Below, one piece after another: positions 10,832 to 32,349 of a DNA stretch of 32,417 nt. Under the pieces are notes generated by a model that searched no databases, was not told the origin of the DNA, and was given only the letters and a program-made list of their open reading frames with translations. Positions within the stretch are counted from its first letter, which is position 1. Every line of letters starts with the position of its first letter. The position numbers were made by a program, and so were the translations under genes. Source of the stretch: a virus. The stretch lies in IMG/VR virus record IMGVR_UViG_3300044825_000195, positions 1 to 32,417 of that record. One strand, 5' to 3'.

Positions 10832-11107
10832 ATGACTACCTTACGACATTTATTGGGGATTGAACGGAAATACCTAGAATTACACGAATCGATTCGGGAG
10901 CTAGGAGGCGTTGAATGCGAGGAAATACCTGAATTCTTTTTCCCGGAAGAGCCGGAACGGGCTACCCGTCTAGCAATAGAAAAGATAGCGAAAGATGTGT
11001 GCCAACGCTGCCCAATTAGGGTACAATGCCTAGATTACGCGAAGTCTACTCGGGTAGTAGGTATTTGGGGAGGTACTACTTACGAGGAGCGTTATCCCCG
11101 GGATTAG
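10832..11107 (+). CDS. whiB-like: WhiB-family iron-sulphur regulator
   Basis: 91 residues with the four [4Fe-4S] cysteines Cys29, Cys57, Cys60 and Cys66 (CQRCPIRVQC) and the turn GIWGGTT that follows them in WhiB/Wbl proteins. Wbl proteins are confined to actinobacteria and their phages and bind the housekeeping sigma factor to alter transcription. It is the only convincing plus-strand gene: divergent from the exonuclease gene and overlapping the end of the holin-like gene tail to tail by four bases. AAGG lies eight bases before the ATG. Likely controls phage or host transcription. Confidence 0.95.
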   Translation: MTTLRHLLGIERKYLELHESIRELGGVECEEIPEFFFPEEPERATRLAIEKIAKDVCQRCPIRVQCLDYAKSTRVVGIWGGTTYEERYPRD

Positions 11108-19508: not shown

Positions 19509-19916
19509 TTATTGTGCGTATACTACGACGTTGAATTCGGCAGCTAGGTAGGTAATCTCGCCAATAACAATAGAGCCGTAATTGCGCATATCGGTCACCC
19601 GGAGGGAATCACATCTCCCACCAAGCGTCCTGTCTAATTCTATCGCAAGCTTTACCGATGAAGTCCCGGCAGGCGTCACGTAAGAATCAAGTAGTCTTTG
19701 TGCGTTTCTTTCCCCGACTCTACCAACGACACAAGTAATTACGAAGTTGTATTCGTCTAGACCGCGCGAACCCGCTTTGTCATAATTGACGTTAGCAACA
19801 TTGATAATTGCTACTGGGGGAGAGATTGTGTCCGGGGTTTCGGTAGTAGTCCTAAGCCCGGAGATAGTAGCTAGAGAGTTAGCAAGCCCAGTCCGTAGGT
19901 CTGTAATCGAAGCCAT
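19509..19916 (-). CDS. tail terminator-like protein
   Basis: 135 residues: SITDLRTGLANSLATISGLR as the first helix, then strands PVAIINVANVNYDKAG, EYNFVITCVVGRVGERNAQR and a closing YLAAEFNVVVYAQ. This alpha-beta pattern, and the place between connector and tube genes, fit the lambda gpU / HK97 gp10-gp11-like tail terminator. ATG overlaps the upstream stop (TAATG). Confidence 0.65.
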   Translation of the reverse strand: MASITDLRTGLANSLATISGLRTTTETPDTISPPVAIINVANVNYDKAGSRGLDEYNFVITCVVGRVGERNAQRLLDSYVTPAGTSSVKLAIELDRTLGGRCDSLRVTDMRNYGSIVIGEITYLAAEFNVVVYAQ

Positions 19917-20512
19917 TAGGCGAATCTAACTTTTCTATAAGGTTCGATTAGTTGCTTTACGTCCGGGTCAAGCTGGGTTCCAACACGAACCGCGCCCATT
20001 TCTCCGAAGCCAGCGATTCCAAGCGGGGAGTCGTTTCTCTTGAAAATTCTTGAAGCTTGAATAACGGTTGCTTGCTTTACCGCCGTAGGAACCGCAGACC
20101 AGCCCCAGACGCCCGTAATTCTTACGGTTGCCTCTCCGTCTAAGTAGTTGAATAAAAAGTCGTCTATCGCCCGTATACGGGTTGCTGGGTACCCTGTAAG
20201 ACCGTCTACTACTCCGTTTAGTGGCTCTAGCTGGTAATCCTTAGAAGCCCAAGTAGTTCCGAAGTTGTCGCCGTCCGATGTCTGAAGGATAGTAATTGAA
20301 ACTAGGTCGTCAATTTCGGTAATGTAAGAATCCTGCGGAGTAAATAAACGGGTCGCAGTTCCGGCGTTATAGAAATAACGCTGTGTATAACTATCGACCA
20401 AGCGCGACGCGGATTCAACCGCAAGTTCCAACATAGCGTCGTCTACGTTGTCAGTAATTCGTGCGGAAGCTTTTACGTCTGCTAAAGAGCAATATCCATT
20501 AGTGATAGCCAA
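19916..20512 (-). CDS. head-tail connector protein
   Basis: 198 residues. The N-terminal helices LADVKASARITDNVDDAMLE and VESASRLVDSYTQRYFY resemble the HK97 gp6 / phage connector start, then beta strands and a C-terminal LDPDVKQLIEPYRKVRFA. It should form the ring that closes the portal. Start is TTG with AAAGGA seven bases upstream. First gene after the inserted sugar genes, so the head-to-tail order is broken only by that cassette. Confidence 0.75.
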   Translation of the reverse strand: MAITNGYCSLADVKASARITDNVDDAMLELAVESASRLVDSYTQRYFYNAGTATRLFTPQDSYITEIDDLVSITILQTSDGDNFGTTWASKDYQLEPLNGVVDGLTGYPATRIRAIDDFLFNYLDGEATVRITGVWGWSAVPTAVKQATVIQASRIFKRNDSPLGIAGFGEMGAVRVGTQLDPDVKQLIEPYRKVRFA

Positions 20513-20533: not shown

Positions 20534-20953
20534 CTATCTTACCAGCCGGGCTTTTATAGCAGTCGAGCTAATCCCCCGAGTATAGGGAATGTAGCATAAT
20601 CCAATTCCCCTTTCATCTAGCCAGTCTTGGGTAAATCCCATTTGAGCGTGGTAATCGCGTCTAGCCCAATCTGAACCGACAACTATTAGGTCGGGCATAA
20701 TCATCTCAATAGCAGGAGTAGAGTCTTCTCCACCGAAGTTTGGGATTACGTCGGATACCCAACGACAACTTCTAAGGACAGCTTCTCTATCGGTATAGCT
20801 AATAATCGGCGGTTTGCCTTTATAGGCGTGTATAAATTCGTCAGTATTTAGGCTAACGATTACTTCTCCAAGCTCCGCGCAACGAGCTAGGAAATTTGCG
20901 TGTCCGGAATGAAAGAGGTCAAACGTGCCTCCGGTATAAACGGTCAATCCCAA
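20534..20953 (-). CDS. cytidylyltransferase-like nucleotidyltransferase
   Basis: 139 residues: GGTFDLFHSGHANFL has the HxGH nucleotidyltransferase motif (His15, His18), VSLNTDEF follows as in glycerol-phosphate or RfaE-type enzymes, and RGISSTAIKARL is the closing ISST motif. The family activates a sugar or polyol phosphate with CTP or ATP. Encoded directly after two glycosyltransferases and overlapping the GT-A gene, it may make an activated donor for them. Start is TTG at 20953 with AGAAGGG seven bases before it. Confidence 0.85.
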   Translation of the reverse strand: MGLTVYTGGTFDLFHSGHANFLARCAELGEVIVSLNTDEFIHAYKGKPPIISYTDREAVLRSCRWVSDVIPNFGGEDSTPAIEMIMPDLIVVGSDWARRDYHAQMGFTQDWLDERGIGLCYIPYTRGISSTAIKARLVR

Positions 20954-21588
20954 CGGTTAGCCCTTCTTATCGTCAAGTCCCAGTAGCCAGCAGAAAAGTC
21001 GTCCTCGATTACTTTCTTATCTAGTAGCTTTCGGTTCGCTTCATAGGTTCGATTGTTTTCTTTTGTCTTGTTGCTTAGGCTTGACGAATTTTCGTGATGA
21101 ACCTTAGCTTCTAGTCTTTGAATCCTTACGCCAGCTTTTTCCATTCTGCGGTGAAGGTCGTTATCGTCAAAGTAGAGAGGATAAAAGCGTTCGTCATAAA
21201 GCCCTGCTTTAGCTATCGCGCCTTCTCCAAATACTACGCACGACCAATCGGGAACTATGTCTACGAAATTGAGAGCGTCAGGGTCGGACTCGGTAGCAAT
21301 TATTTCTAAGGCTCCTGATTCAAACCAAGCGTCGTCATTTACCAAAACCCAATAAGGAGCGTAAGGCGTCGATTTGATTATGAGGTTCCAAGCACCGACT
21401 AGACCTAATCCGAACGGAATACGGATAAGCCAAATATTCTTTACTTGCTCCGGCTTCTTAGGTTCCCAAGAACTAGTTCCAGAATTATCTACAATTACTA
21501 GGTGTTCAACCGGATAATCGATTGAGTTCAAAAGTCGGTTAGCTTTATCGAACTGACTATAAACCGCGAACCCAAGAACGGGAATCAT
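20944..21588 (-). CDS. GT-A glycosyltransferase (family 2 type)
   Basis: 214 residues: VLGFAVYSQFDKANRLLNSI, HLVIVDNSGTSS, then VLVNDDAWFE, which gives the Asp-rich metal motif, and YFDDNDLHRRMEKAG for the catalytic acidic region. This matches family 2-like transferases that add a sugar from a nucleotide donor. ATG overlaps the stop of the GT-B gene. Substrate unknown; capsid or tail protein or the host surface are possible targets. Confidence 0.85.
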   Translation of the reverse strand: MIPVLGFAVYSQFDKANRLLNSIDYPVEHLVIVDNSGTSSWEPKKPEQVKNIWLIRIPFGLGLVGAWNLIIKSTPYAPYWVLVNDDAWFESGALEIIATESDPDALNFVDIVPDWSCVVFGEGAIAKAGLYDERFYPLYFDDNDLHRRMEKAGVRIQRLEAKVHHENSSSLSNKTKENNRTYEANRKLLDKKVIEDDFSAGYWDLTIRRANRWD

Positions 21589-22772
21589 TACGCGAACTTT
21601 TCCTTGAGGATAGGTCTCCAGTATTTATCCCAAACTTTATCTACGTCGAAGTCAGAAGCGAAGTCGATTGATTTTTGACTTCTTCCCTTTCCTAGCTTGT
21701 AGGCTTCTTCAAGCGCAGCAACGATTGAAGGCACATTTGGAATCTGCCACCAAGCGTCTTGCCCGCTATCCCATTGGGGCTGTCCGTCTACTAGGAAAGA
21801 ATCCTCGGAGAGAAGGTCAGGAGTAGCTGCCCAAGACGAACCAATAACCCGGGTTCCGCAAGCCTGAGCTTCAACCGACGGCACGCCGAAGCCTTCACCG
21901 TAAGAAGTCGCTAGTAGGACGTCCATTCCCGTATAGTATCCGGCTAGGGTTTCTTGGGAAATTCCGTAGCGATAACTTAGCGGGTTGGGGAACGCTACGT
22001 CTTCTTTATCTACTTCTAGGCTTTGTAAAAGCGAAACTAGATTCCAACCGATACCCTTCGAAATTGGGTCAGTATGTAAGTAGAGCAACGCTTCTGGGTG
22101 CTTCTTTTGGAAGATAGAGAAGGCGAGTAGGTTTTCGGAAAATGCTTTGCGGTGAACTAGCCCGGAAGATTTATTAGCAGCAACCATACCGACAACAAAG
22201 CGGTCTTTAGTTCCCATATGTTCATCTACGGGCTGACCGTTTATTTCGAAGGTTGGCTTTAGTGTTTTAGTATCTATCCCGTGCGGTGCGTACTTACACT
22301 CAATCCCCTTAGCTTCCATTTGTCTAACTCCGTGCGGAGCCATAGCAACGGGCGTCACCCTTTCCTTCTTTAGAAATTCTTCGACTCTAGGCGGAAGCGT
22401 AATGTGGTCGAGGGGAACCCAACTAAGAATATCTATATCGTTGAACGCCGGATTAGTAAGAACCCAAACGTCATAAAGGGTAAGCATAGCGTTTGGTTGT
22501 CCGGGCTTAGAGGCTGCGAATGTCTTATGGTCTACCGGAGCCGAATCATTTGAATACATATCGAACCCGCGGGCGTAGTGCGGAATCTTTCCATAAGGGG
22601 TTTCTAGTTCGCGCTTGATTCCCTCGAGTCCGTAATTTGAAAGAGCAGCAACGTCGAAGCCGTCGCGCTTTAGTCGGTCTACAAGATAGCGCGCTTGCTG
22701 TCCGTAGCCCGTTGGCTGGTCTGGTGAATTTGAATAGAGGGTTATTGTCCCCTTGAATTTATTGGTAGGCAT
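21588..22772 (-). CDS. GT-B glycosyltransferase (family 4 type)
   Basis: 394 residues. N-terminal SNSPDQPTGYGQQARYLVDR and C-terminal TSYGEGFGVPSVEAQACGTR, with the E-x7-E donor-binding motif, are characteristic of family 4 glycosyltransferases. It starts the inserted sugar cassette right after the capsid gene terminator. No ribosome binding site is visible: the ATG is preceded by CGCTTTTTTT, unlike nearly all other genes here. Confidence 0.88.
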   Translation of the reverse strand: MPTNKFKGTITLYSNSPDQPTGYGQQARYLVDRLKRDGFDVAALSNYGLEGIKRELETPYGKIPHYARGFDMYSNDSAPVDHKTFAASKPGQPNAMLTLYDVWVLTNPAFNDIDILSWVPLDHITLPPRVEEFLKKERVTPVAMAPHGVRQMEAKGIECKYAPHGIDTKTLKPTFEINGQPVDEHMGTKDRFVVGMVAANKSSGLVHRKAFSENLLAFSIFQKKHPEALLYLHTDPISKGIGWNLVSLLQSLEVDKEDVAFPNPLSYRYGISQETLAGYYTGMDVLLATSYGEGFGVPSVEAQACGTRVIGSSWAATPDLLSEDSFLVDGQPQWDSGQDAWWQIPNVPSIVAALEEAYKLGKGRSQKSIDFASDFDVDKVWDKYWRPILKEKFA

Positions 22773-22807
22773 AAAAAAAGCGTAGCAGAAAAATTAGACA
22801 AAAGGAA

Positions 22808-22838
22808 AGGTCGCAGGAACCCTACCGTCCTGCGACCT
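22808..22838 (-). terminator. terminator after major capsid gene
   Basis: A perfect 11-base stem AGGTCGCAGGA / TCCTGCGACCT with a nine-base loop, followed on the minus strand by TTCCTTTTGTC. It lies 22 bases after the capsid stop and before the sugar genes, so it should limit their read-through. Confidence 0.8.
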
Positions 22839-22860
22839 CTCCAGTCTGTTTAGCTAGGGT

Positions 22861-24033
22861 TTAGCTAGCTCCACCCTTGAACTTGACGAAGTGAGCAGCG
22901 TGGCTCAAGTTTCCGTCAACTCTGGCGGTGACGCGGAATGTGGTCACGTCCTGGTTGAAAGCATAGTCAGCTGACTGTGCCACCTGAATACCACCAGCAA
23001 GGCGAGCCTTGTAGGAAGGTAGGTGTCCGAATCCGATTGAGAATGCGCCAGTAGCAACTGCTGGAGCTGCTGGGTTCTCGAATACTGGGTAGCCGAGGAT
23101 TGTGTCTGGCTGACCAACTACTGCGTTTCCTGACCAGATGTAGTTTCCTGCGCCGTCCTTTAGCTTGCGAACTGCGGCAAGACCAGACTTCGACATTAGG
23201 AATCCAACGCCCGGAAGAATTCTTGCCTGACCGTCTAGTGCGTAAACAAGGTCTACAAGGTTCTCATAGGTTGGTGCGCCAGAAACTCCGGTGCCACCAG
23301 TCACGGCAGAAGCTCCAGCGGTAAAGATACCAGTTGGCTCTACTGTTCCGGTTCCAACGGTTAGTCCGGTGTTGATTCCGAAACCGATTGCGTTTCCAGC
23401 CTGCTCTGCGATTAGAGCAGAAATGTCGAAACCAGCATCATTCAAAAGTTCATTCGCCACAGGCACTAGGAATGAATACTTGTATGCGCCTAGAGTGATG
23501 TTTGAGAATGTTGGTTCGCTGTCGGAGATTGCTGAACCAGCACCCTTGATTGTCGCGGTTGAATACGCGGTCAAGGTTGGAATGGTTAGGCTCTCACCTG
23601 AAGCGGTGTTGATGACCTGAGCAACGTTTAGCATTGGTCCAGCAAGTCTGGCAAGGCTAAACACCTGGTCGAAGAACGACTTAGGAACAGTCGAGTCTGA
23701 AGGAACTAGAGTTCTTGACTCGGTTCCGAATACGTGTGAACGTAGTTCGCCGTTAGCAATTGCGCGTAGCACATCTGCGTCGTTGCGAACTTCGCTGGTT
23801 GGAACAGATGATTCGCGAGCAGCGTCTACAGCGCGCTCTTCGCGCTCTGCTAGCTTCTTCGCGGTTTCGATAGCTGCGTCACGCTGGCTAATCTCTGATT
23901 CAATGCGGTCGATTTTCTGCTGGTCTTCAGCAGTTAGCCCACGCTTCTCCGCTTCGGCAGACTCAATTACGGAACGAGCCTGTTCGATTAGGTTGTTGCG
24001 AGCTTCAACCTGCGACTTTAGAAAGTCTGACAT
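22861..24033 (-). CDS. major capsid protein, HK97 fold
   Basis: 390 residues. Residues 1-95 are a charged coiled coil (delta/scaffold domain), removed by the protease in this family. The rest has the HK97 pattern: VFSLARLAGPMLNVAQVI, GESLTIPTLTAYSTATI, KYSFLVPVANELLND, then LDGQARILPGVGFLMSK, ILGYPVFENPAAPAV and the P-loop to the end. AAGGAG eight bases before the ATG is the strongest ribosome binding site of the late genes. Flanked by hairpin terminators at both ends, which fits a separately abundant transcript. Confidence 0.93.
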   Translation of the reverse strand: MSDFLKSQVEARNNLIEQARSVIESAEAEKRGLTAEDQQKIDRIESEISQRDAAIETAKKLAEREERAVDAARESSVPTSEVRNDADVLRAIANGELRSHVFGTESRTLVPSDSTVPKSFFDQVFSLARLAGPMLNVAQVINTASGESLTIPTLTAYSTATIKGAGSAISDSEPTFSNITLGAYKYSFLVPVANELLNDAGFDISALIAEQAGNAIGFGINTGLTVGTGTVEPTGIFTAGASAVTGGTGVSGAPTYENLVDLVYALDGQARILPGVGFLMSKSGLAAVRKLKDGAGNYIWSGNAVVGQPDTILGYPVFENPAAPAVATGAFSIGFGHLPSYKARLAGGIQVAQSADYAFNQDVTTFRVTARVDGNLSHAAHFVKFKGGAS

Positions 24034-30098: not shown

Positions 30099-31178
30099 CT
30101 AACGGGTCTTGGAAAGTATTTCTCTAGCTATTGTTTCACCTATGGCTTTAGCCATAAGCGGGGGAACGCTCCTGCCGATACGCTCGGCACGTTGCGCGTA
30201 GGTTCCCGTAAGAACAAAGTCTGCCGGGAAACTAGATAGAAGCCTTAGCTCTTCAAGCGTAAACTTCCGTTTCTCTAGAGGGTGAACAACCGAAGCTGCG
30301 CTCATAGCTCCGATAGTTGCGGTAATAGTTCCAACGGGCTTAGAGGGGTCAGGCTTTACTAACTGGAAATACTTTTCCGAGGCTTTCCCAACCGGAGTCT
30401 TATCCCACTCGGAGCCAATAGCGTATCTATCTAGGCTGATATCAAAGCCAGTATCCGGGTCTAAGTAATCCGCTAGGGTAGCAACGTCTTCTAGGGCTTC
30501 GGCTAGAGAATACTGGTATTCAAACGGAGAGGGGAACGCCGGAGCAACTTTATATTTCTCTACTAGGTCGTTCCGGACTCCGACAAAGATAATCCGCTTT
30601 CTAGCTTGGGGAACTCCTAGCCAAGACGCGTCTAGAAGTTTAGCTTCTACGGTATACCCGTTAGCTCGAAGGTCGCGTAGGATTTCGCGGAAGTAGCCTA
30701 GAGCGGTTCCCCTAACTAGCCCGGAAACGTTTTCCGCGATAAAGGTTTTAGGTTGAATCTCTTTTATTAGACGGGAGTATTCAAAGAAAAGGTCGTCCGC
30801 TCTTTGCTCGGAATCCGAATAGGACTTTACTTTCCCCCAAGCCTTTTCCCTTGAGCCAGCCATAGAAAAGGAGGAGCAAGGAGGAGAGCCTTCAAATAAA
30901 TCTAGTTCGCCAACAGAAAGACCAATCGCTTCGAGAATATCGGAGCCTTTTACTTTTCTTACATCTCGGTCATCTAGGATTACTCCGTCGTGATTGGCTC
31001 GATAGGTTTCCCTAGCTTCGGGAATAAACTCGTTTGCCCAACGTAAATCGAAGCCCGCCATTTCAAATCCAAGACAAGAGCCACCGCAACCGGAGAAAGT
31101 CGAAACCATAGTAAAGCCGTTAGAGCCTTTAGCCTTCTTTACGTCGTCCATAGTCGGGACGGAATACTTGGGCTTCAT
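30099..31178 (-). CDS. C5-cytosine DNA methyltransferase, motif X Asn-to-Arg
   Basis: 359 residues with the C5-methyltransferase motifs: I FSGCGG (28-33), IV GSPPCSSFS with catalytic Cys101, VI ENV (149-151), VIII QARKR (191-195) and X. Motif X reads IGRSVPP, with Arg336 where the family has Asn (GNSVPP). It is translated after the CmoA-like gene through an ATGA overlap, so I use ATG 31178 rather than a longer frame to 31271. The family moves a methyl group from SAM to C5 of cytosine; because of Arg336 and its neighbour, carboxy-SAM may be the donor. Target sequence unknown. Confidence 0.93.
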   Translation of the reverse strand: MKPKYSVPTMDDVKKAKGSNGFTMVSTFSGCGGSCLGFEMAGFDLRWANEFIPEARETYRANHDGVILDDRDVRKVKGSDILEAIGLSVGELDLFEGSPPCSSFSMAGSREKAWGKVKSYSDSEQRADDLFFEYSRLIKEIQPKTFIAENVSGLVRGTALGYFREILRDLRANGYTVEAKLLDASWLGVPQARKRIIFVGVRNDLVEKYKVAPAFPSPFEYQYSLAEALEDVATLADYLDPDTGFDISLDRYAIGSEWDKTPVGKASEKYFQLVKPDPSKPVGTITATIGAMSAASVVHPLEKRKFTLEELRLLSSFPADFVLTGTYAQRAERIGRSVPPLMAKAIGETIAREILSKTR

Positions 31179-31867
31179 TCTTTTACCGCTACCCAACCAG
31201 CGAAGTTTAGATGACGCCAATAACAATCGACGTGTTTGAATCCCGCTTCTCTTAGTAGCTCGACGTTCCAATCCGCCGTCACGGGAACTAGGACGCCTTC
31301 TAAACTTTCTTTCTTTCTTTCGATTTGTTCTTTAGAGTAGCCGTGCGATTCTTTCGTCTTTAGGAAAGTATCTATAAGAAGCTTGTTCGCGTAGGCGTCG
31401 GAACCAAGAACCTTTTCAACGAATAGGAAAACTCCGCCGGGGTTCGTATTGTCGTAGACGTTTTGAATAATCTCTTGGCGGTATTCGATAGGGATAAATT
31501 GAAGCGTTAGGACGGATAGGGTCACGGACGCTCTTGTGCGCGGGTAGGTCTTTCGTAAATCAAGGTCTAAGATTTCGGCGAACGGAACTTCTTCTTTCGC
31601 TGCCTTACGCATAGGCTTAGAAACTTCAATACCCAAATACTTTACGGATTCTTTTAGTTCTTGATAAATAGGCTTTAGTGCCGCTCCGCGAGAGCAACCT
31701 AAATCGACAATATCGGTTCCGGGTTTAGCGAATCGAAGCGCAAGGTTTGTCGTTAGCTCTCGCATTCCCTCGTAGTCCGGAATTGAACGGGCTAACATAT
31801 CGTCAAAAACTTTCGTCACGGCTTCGTCAAATTCCCATTTGCCTTTCGGCATTACGGAGTCTTTCAC
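31175..31867 (-). CDS. cmoA-like: CmoA-like carboxy-SAM synthase
   Basis: 230 residues aligning block by block with E. coli CmoA: FDEAVTKVFDDMLARSIPDY ([20 protein letters not shown]), VDLGCSRGAALK (VYDLGCSLGAAT), LTLQFIPIEYRQ (FTLQFLEPSERQ), NPGGVFLFVEK, and GYSKEQIERKK leading to LNFAGWVAVK. Arg199 of CmoA, which binds the carboxylate, aligns with Lys186. CmoA makes carboxy-SAM from SAM and prephenate for tRNA uridine modification; no CmoB-like partner is visible here, but a DNA C5-methyltransferase follows at once. Start is GTG overlapping the ParB-like stop; ATG 31852 is an alternative. Confidence 0.85.
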   Translation of the reverse strand: MKDSVMPKGKWEFDEAVTKVFDDMLARSIPDYEGMRELTTNLALRFAKPGTDIVDLGCSRGAALKPIYQELKESVKYLGIEVSKPMRKAAKEEVPFAEILDLDLRKTYPRTRASVTLSVLTLQFIPIEYRQEIIQNVYDNTNPGGVFLFVEKVLGSDAYANKLLIDTFLKTKESHGYSKEQIERKKESLEGVLVPVTADWNVELLREAGFKHVDCYWRHLNFAGWVAVKE

Positions 31868-32349
31868 TTAGACTTGCCGTTCCATTCGTATTGACACTTA
31901 GGGCAACGGTGCGAAGTTTCTTCCGTATCATCAAAGCTAGGGAAGTCTTCGGGTCGCGTAGATTCAGAAGGTTCTTCTTTTGCGAATCCAAATTCTTCAA
32001 TTACGAAGTTAGCTTCTTCAAGCTCGAGTAGTTGCTCCGCTAGAGTAATCGAATCCCAAGACGCTAGTTCGGCAGTTCGGTTGTCAGCAAGCGCGAACGC
32101 CTTTATCTGTTCCGGTGTCCAATCGCCCGGGACGCGAACCGCGTCAATCTTTAGCCAGCCTAATCGCTTCGCTGCTTCGACCGTTCCGTTGCCCGCAACG
32201 ATTACGCCATCTTCGGTTATGACGATTGGCTTACGTTGCCCGAATTCCTTGAGAGAACCCTGAATAGATTTGAGGTTCTTTTCGTCGTGTCGCCTAGCGT
32301 TTGAAGGGTCAGGCGTTAGGTCTTTGATTTGTAGGGTTTCGATTTTCAT
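31864..32349 (-). CDS. ParB-like nuclease-domain protein with zinc ribbon
   Basis: 161 residues. N-terminal ParB/sulfiredoxin-like domain: NARRHDEKNLKSI, EFGQRKPIVITEDG, IVAGNGTVEAAKRLGW, then ALADNRTAELASWD. A C-terminal CPKCQYEW ribbon end is added after an acidic linker; only one Cys pair is seen. In phages this domain often stands beside, or fused to, DNA methyltransferases, and it begins the operon with the modification genes. AGAAAGGCAGCT precedes the ATG. It lacks a DNA-binding HTH, so it is not a partition ParB. Confidence 0.8.
   Translation of the reverse strand: MKIETLQIKDLTPDPSNARRHDEKNLKSIQGSLKEFGQRKPIVITEDGVIVAGNGTVEAAKRLGWLKIDAVRVPGDWTPEQIKAFALADNRTAELASWDSITLAEQLLELEEANFVIEEFGFAKEEPSESTRPEDFPSFDDTEETSHRCPKCQYEWNGKSK

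Follow-up and report, generated by a model that had tools for sequence, protein, structure and literature searches.

A conserved GT4-type glycosyltransferase gene with exchangeable sugar-enzyme companions between the capsid and connector genes of an actinophage lineage, a candidate locus for virion glycosylation

Organization of the capsid-connector slot

The stretch of DNA analyzed here (the window) is the whole virus record IMGVR_UViG_3300044825_000195, positions 1 to 32,417, with a length of 32,417 bases. Its late genes lie on the – strand in the order small terminase, large terminase, portal, head protease, HK97 capsid, a three-gene cassette, gp6-like connector, tail genes, and tape measure. 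The features that concern us are the following.

10922-11092, + strand: gene of the WhiB family, encoded opposite to the late genes; an actinophage marker
19916-20512, – strand: gp6-like head-tail connector gene (PF05135, E=4.5e-6; phrog_442, E=1.5e-19), the downstream boundary of the slot
20534-20953, – strand: cytidylyltransferase-like nucleotidyltransferase gene, 139 aa, TTG start (PF01467, E=5e-18)
20944-21588, – strand: GT-A fold, GT2-like glycosyltransferase gene, 214 aa (phrog_29879 'galactosyl transferase', E=9e-29; Pfam matches sub-threshold only)
21588-22772, – strand: GT-B fold, GT4-type glycosyltransferase gene, 394 aa (PF13692, E=1.2e-7; PF00534, E=5e-7; phrog_2170, E=7e-34)
22804-22842, – strand: intrinsic terminator between the capsid gene and the cassette, a 15-bp stem with a T-rich tract (-33.9 kcal/mol, z -4.6)
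22861-24033, – strand: HK97-type major capsid gene (PF05065, E=7.5e-57), the upstream neighbor of the cassette; the protein ends ...FKGGAS

The WhiB-family gene, the identity of the closest named phage (Pontimonas phage phiPsal1) and the presence of a related contig (L203) in a Microbacteriaceae assembly indicate that the virus is an actinophage, with Microbacteriaceae as its probable host group. Upstream of the small terminase gene, at 30099-32349 on the – strand, genes for a DNA methyltransferase, a tRNA-methyltransferase-like protein and a ParB-like protein stand in a row.

A previous interpretation made from the DNA letters (the sequence-only reading) had described a GT-B transferase, a GT-A transferase and a nucleotidyltransferase that overlap each other directly after the capsid gene. 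This was confirmed by the gene calls, by the Pfam and PHROG matches and, for both glycosyltransferases, by AlphaFold2 folds. The two glycosyltransferases are encoded in one run, with an overlap of 1 bp, and the GT-A and nucleotidyltransferase genes overlap by 10 bp. The GT-B model (pLDDT 89.7) has a GT-B fold, with 3oy2 as its best PDB match (TM 0.74) and a chlorella-virus glycosyltransferase as the nearest solved structure. This fold, a Glycos_transf_1 domain and an E-x7-E motif (residues 293-301, kept across relatives) are the features by which we assign the enzyme to GT4, and its catalytic residues are conserved in relatives down to ~45% identity. The GT-A model (pLDDT 91.6) gave GT-A-fold matches at E ~1e-8, among them many GT2 enzymes including polypeptide GalNAc-transferases (TM ~0.6), and the acidic residues D86 and D142 together with H165 are invariant across relatives. 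The closest solved structures fix neither donor nor acceptor for either enzyme. In the nucleotidyltransferase the motifs HxGH and TxGISxTxIK are conserved across relatives. The protein scored 72.7 bits with the TagD model TIGR01518, below the equivalog cut-off of 165.4, and it also fell below that of RfaE, these being the two closest named activities, so that the NCBIfam models do not assign its substrate. None of the three enzymes has a clear transmembrane segment. The G+C content of the GT-A gene is 0.44, relative to 0.48-0.52, which is too small a shift to argue for recent transfer.

The terminator was analyzed in the window and by a scan of the relatives described below, which located a terminator downstream of the capsid gene in 63 of the 88, compared with 2 of 440 shuffled controls. 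The hairpin that the sequence-only reading had called a strong terminator of the cassette's upstream side is thus real (z = -4.6), but it is part of the capsid module and its transcript and does not belong to the cassette, since a relative that lacks the cassette retains it. The start codon of the cassette is directly behind the hairpin, and the space downstream of the hairpin leaves no room for a separate promoter. Low-level read-through of the terminator would therefore be the simplest route to expression of the cassette.

A fixed glycosyltransferase and variable companions among relatives

Relatives were retrieved with the capsid protein alone, so that the sample carries no bias toward phages with glycosyltransferases, and it comprises 88 distinct complete capsid-to-connector junctions. 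In this survey for the same insertion point, which the sequence-only reading had proposed, the same GT-B gene was the first gene in 87 of the 88 slots. The junction of contig L193 (1995-2154) is an empty 160 bp with the terminator retained, and provides a cassette-free control from within the family; this contig is just 5.5 kb, and a glycosyltransferase elsewhere in that phage is possible. Control phages whose capsids are distantly related have their next gene within 10-70 bp of the capsid gene, and it is never a glycosyltransferase. Together with the empty slot of L193, this upholds the claim that the cassette interrupts the usual order of head genes.

Behind the GT-B gene the contents vary. 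The commonest arrangement is that of the window, GT-A plus nucleotidyltransferase; in 11 slots the GT-B gene is alone, and elsewhere it is followed by a GT4-like and GT2 pair, by GT-A with an SDR epimerase, by a UDP-glucose-dehydrogenase-like gene, by a GT17 gene, by methyltransferases, by MptE-like proteins or occasionally by HNH genes. Where a replacement gene is annotated, it mostly encodes a sugar enzyme (GT2, GT17, the GDP-mannose-dehydratase/epimerase type, the RmlD type, UDP-glucose dehydrogenase and methyltransferases). The nucleotidyltransferase had been proposed to supply an activated donor, which is possible, but 30 of the 88 relatives do without it and its scores fall below both NCBIfam cut-offs. 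On the capsid tree the GT-B gene requires a single change, compared to at least 13 for the GT-A gene, at least 17 for the nucleotidyltransferase gene and at least 26 for the whole arrangement. Even among pairs with at least 80% capsid identity, 37% had at least one member without GT-A and 51% at least one without the nucleotidyltransferase, whereas no pair had a member without GT-B. Judged by gene content, the cassette is the normal state of this lineage, in which GT-B is fixed and its companions are gained, lost and swapped. The sequence-only reading had the insertion point right; the word 'inserted', taken as a one-off event, does not describe what the relatives contain. These presence patterns suggest that GT-B may act as a primer and the other enzymes as variable extenders.

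A variable, terminator-bounded gap might also be a neutral 'moron' cargo island, in which GT-B survives as a matter of history and acts on small molecules or on nothing specific. HNH endonuclease genes and unrelated open reading frames, one of which resembles a purine nucleoside phosphorylase, do enter the gap, and the slot genes differ little in G+C content from the remaining genome, as this explanation would have it. Retention of GT-B in 87 of 88 slots with catalytic residues conserved to ~45% identity, however, needs selection, and the cargo is mostly sugar-related instead of random, and we therefore regard neutral cargo as very unlikely.

The association extends beyond the sampled junctions: of the other GT-B loci, 39 have upstream sequence, and the related capsid gene was adjacent in 37 of these and a capsid gene of a different family in 2. 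Rank correlations of pairwise identity (Spearman) do not single out coevolution of GT-B with the capsid beyond that of other neighbors, the values being 0.48 for GT-B with the capsid and 0.46 for the connector with the capsid. Since GT-B divergence tracks the capsid no better than connector divergence does, the adjacency to the capsid gene may lack functional meaning; gene order in tightly packed genomes can persist without a functional tie to the neighbor.

Homologous and comparable loci in other phages

The closest named phage, Pontimonas phage phiPsal1 (MG835450), resembles the window in having, in the same order, a capsid gene, GT-B (50% identical), GT-A (35%) and a neck gene, with both glycosyltransferases already annotated in GenBank. 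It differs in that its cassette includes a reversed methyltransferase and lacks a nucleotidyltransferase. No study was made of this phage, which has been lost (PMC6106888). More distantly, GT-B homologs with 34-41% identity are carried by Microcystis phage Mae-JY09 and by two phage-like contigs whose source assemblies are labeled Saccharibacteria and Chloroflexi, possibly through misbinning. In these three, GT-B adjoins the capsid gene or lies one small gene beyond it, and an epimerase, sometimes with a GT-A, is next; in Mae-JY09 itself, GT-B and epimerase sit between capsid and adaptor. The capsids of Mae-JY09 and of the Saccharibacteria-labeled contig come from another PHROG family, and IMG/VR relatives of these loci show the same capsid-adjacent GT-B pattern. 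The order capsid-(epimerase/GT)-connector thus recurs in distant phages. Synechococcus phage S-CBS4 shares the phrog_2170 and phrog_29879 glycosyltransferase families with the window, also in the head region, where its two glycosyltransferases and a methyltransferase sit between portal and protease. Unlike the window, S-CBS4 and Mae-JY09 have other capsid families, gene orders and companions, and no nucleotidyltransferase is annotated in the stretches of their head regions that we examined.

Other homologs lie away from head genes. Distant GT-B relatives in S-EIVl and Tetrasphaera phage TJE1 stand in non-head contexts, and in Streptomyces phages Karp and Jay2Jay (L283:7729-9450; L284:7723-9435) two glycosyltransferases overlap a nucleotidyltransferase that is ~52-54% identical to that of the window and is set among DNA-metabolism genes. 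The latter context bears on the idea that the window enzymes glycosylate phage DNA against host nucleases. DNA modification is the usual suggestion for actinophage glycosyltransferases (PMC10202952), and the window encodes a DNA methyltransferase. Comparison of the glycosyltransferases beside the Streptomyces-phage nucleotidyltransferase with the window GT-A was negative, however; the cassette is located in the head operon, apart from replication genes, and profile searches that were positive in controls detected neither thymidylate synthase (PF00303) nor ThyX (PF02511), the candidate base-hydroxymethylating enzymes, in this possibly incomplete record. DNA glycosylation is accordingly the least probable of the explanations considered here.

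Glycosylation of the virion itself has a precedent in mycobacteriophages, having been reported for Che8, Corndog and Myrna (Freeman et al., 2023, as relayed in PMC12363180, PMC11256854, and PMC12619734). Corndog gp38 and Che8 gp110 are reported to be essential for capsid glycosylation (PMC12363180), and the glycans to be covalently attached to capsid and tail-tube subunits, at their C-termini (PMC12619734). Che8-type systems, like the window cassette, comprise a run of phage-encoded glycosyltransferases. The Che8 genes, however, belong to phrog_8858, phrog_1721 and phrog_854, as opposed to phrog_2170 and phrog_29879, and lie at the right end of the genome away from the capsid gene instead of beside it. 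No homology of the window enzymes to Che8 gp108-gp110 was found, with hhalign probabilities of 0.3, 5.5 and 0.1% and different PHROGs. Because the enzyme families differ, we would say that the cassette may work like the Che8/Corndog system and not that it is a member of it. A location of glycosyltransferases in the head cluster nevertheless has a precedent of its own, since homologs of the proven enzymes sit there in Corndogvirus Familton: its portal and protease genes flank two glycosyltransferases, one of which shares 47% identity with Che8 gp110. In 86 of 88 relatives the last residue of the capsid protein is Ser, as it is in the capsid and tail proteins of Che8 and Familton; the tail tube of the window ends in Ala. 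As a specific acceptor mark this Ser is weak, for it is also found in L193, which has no cassette, and in 2 of 6 control phages.

Virion glycosylation and modification of the host surface

We favor the reading that the locus glycosylates the virion, with GT-B adding a common sugar and the variable set building lineage-specific glycans, and put its probability at about 0.6. The sequence-only reading had likewise placed the target on the virion, and this is the best-supported interpretation on account of the near-universal linkage of GT-B and capsid genes, the modular sugar companions, and the homologs of capsid glycosyltransferases in the head operon of Familton. The HK97-type capsid protein is the probable acceptor. 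In our model, where expression by read-through, the acceptor, the identity of the sugar, the sequence of enzyme action and the benefit are all inferred, a WhiB-carrying actinophage would express the cassette late, as a fraction of transcripts runs past the terminator downstream of the capsid gene, yielding few enzyme molecules for many capsid subunits. In the infected cell, the fixed GT-B would place the first sugar on the capsid protein, at an exposed residue, and possibly on a tail protein as well. Extension or decoration of this sugar would then fall to the variable enzymes in second and third place, which in the window are GT-A and the nucleotidyltransferase, so that swapped companions could give close relatives different sugar coats; the benefit may be altered adsorption, shielding, stability or decoy. 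Besides the persistence of gene order noted above, the following counts against virion glycosylation: the validated enzymes, Che8 gp108-110, have no detectable homology to those of the window, and the GT-B relatives of S-EIVl and TJE1 and the 52%-identical Streptomyces nucleotidyltransferase lie outside head contexts.

Alternatively, the enzymes could modify cell-wall or surface polymers of the host late in infection and so keep progeny from adsorbing to debris or other phages from superinfecting, the slot being no more than a convenient late position. Phage glycosyltransferases can alter host surface glycans, as has been proposed for those of freshwater actinophages (PMC10202952), and the nucleotidyltransferase is similar to TagD, which makes CDP-glycerol for wall teichoic acid. 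The Pontimonas cell wall is probably polyrhamnose, with a wealth of glycosyltransferases (PMC6106888), an RmlD-like reductase occurs in the slot of one relative, and swapping of companions is compatible with diverse host surfaces. Conversely, the TagD-like enzyme is under its cut-off and missing in a third of relatives, and the cassette has no clear membrane segment. The GtrA flippase and temperate life cycle of gtrABC-type seroconversion have no counterpart in the profile searches either, as neither PF04138 (GtrA) nor PF00589 (integrase) was found in the record, which may be incomplete. Moreover, host-surface modification does not predict the fixed linkage of GT-B and capsid genes, which is seen even with another capsid family. 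We consider host-surface modification unlikely but possible.

Taking virion glycosylation as the working interpretation, we tentatively suggest, with rather less confidence, that the capsid-connector gap could be a dedicated glycan-type locus of aquatic phages, in which the first sugar on the particle would come from an invariant capsid-linked GT4 enzyme, and a coat peculiar to each lineage would be built by sugar enzymes exchanged horizontally. Such a locus might be likened, as a similarly tentative analogy, to bacterial O-antigen loci, in that the surface would change among close relatives while the capsid protein stays constant. Virion glycosyltransferases are already known, and as far as the searched records show, what is new is the combination of a GT4 enzyme tied to the capsid gene with sugar genes that can be exchanged; no description of a capsid-tied GT-B with swapped sugar genes was found in the searchable literature, which omits most subscription journals. 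Phage virion glycosylation has so far been demonstrated in a few mycobacteriophages only. If our reading is true, an abundant group of aquatic actinophages would as a rule have glycosylated particles, made by unrelated enzymes, and a fixed GT-B adjacent to the capsid gene would serve as a sequence marker for glycosylated phages in metagenomes. The swapped companions would also constitute a natural experiment, with near-identical capsids in different coats and one relative with none, which would probe the role of particle sugars where an animal immune system plays no part.

HNH endonuclease genes lie antisense between the capsid and GT-B genes in six relatives (L060, L067, L075, L172, L186, and L191), and one lies within the cassette itself (L054:4043-4555). 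It is possible that these are homing elements or agents of cassette swapping.
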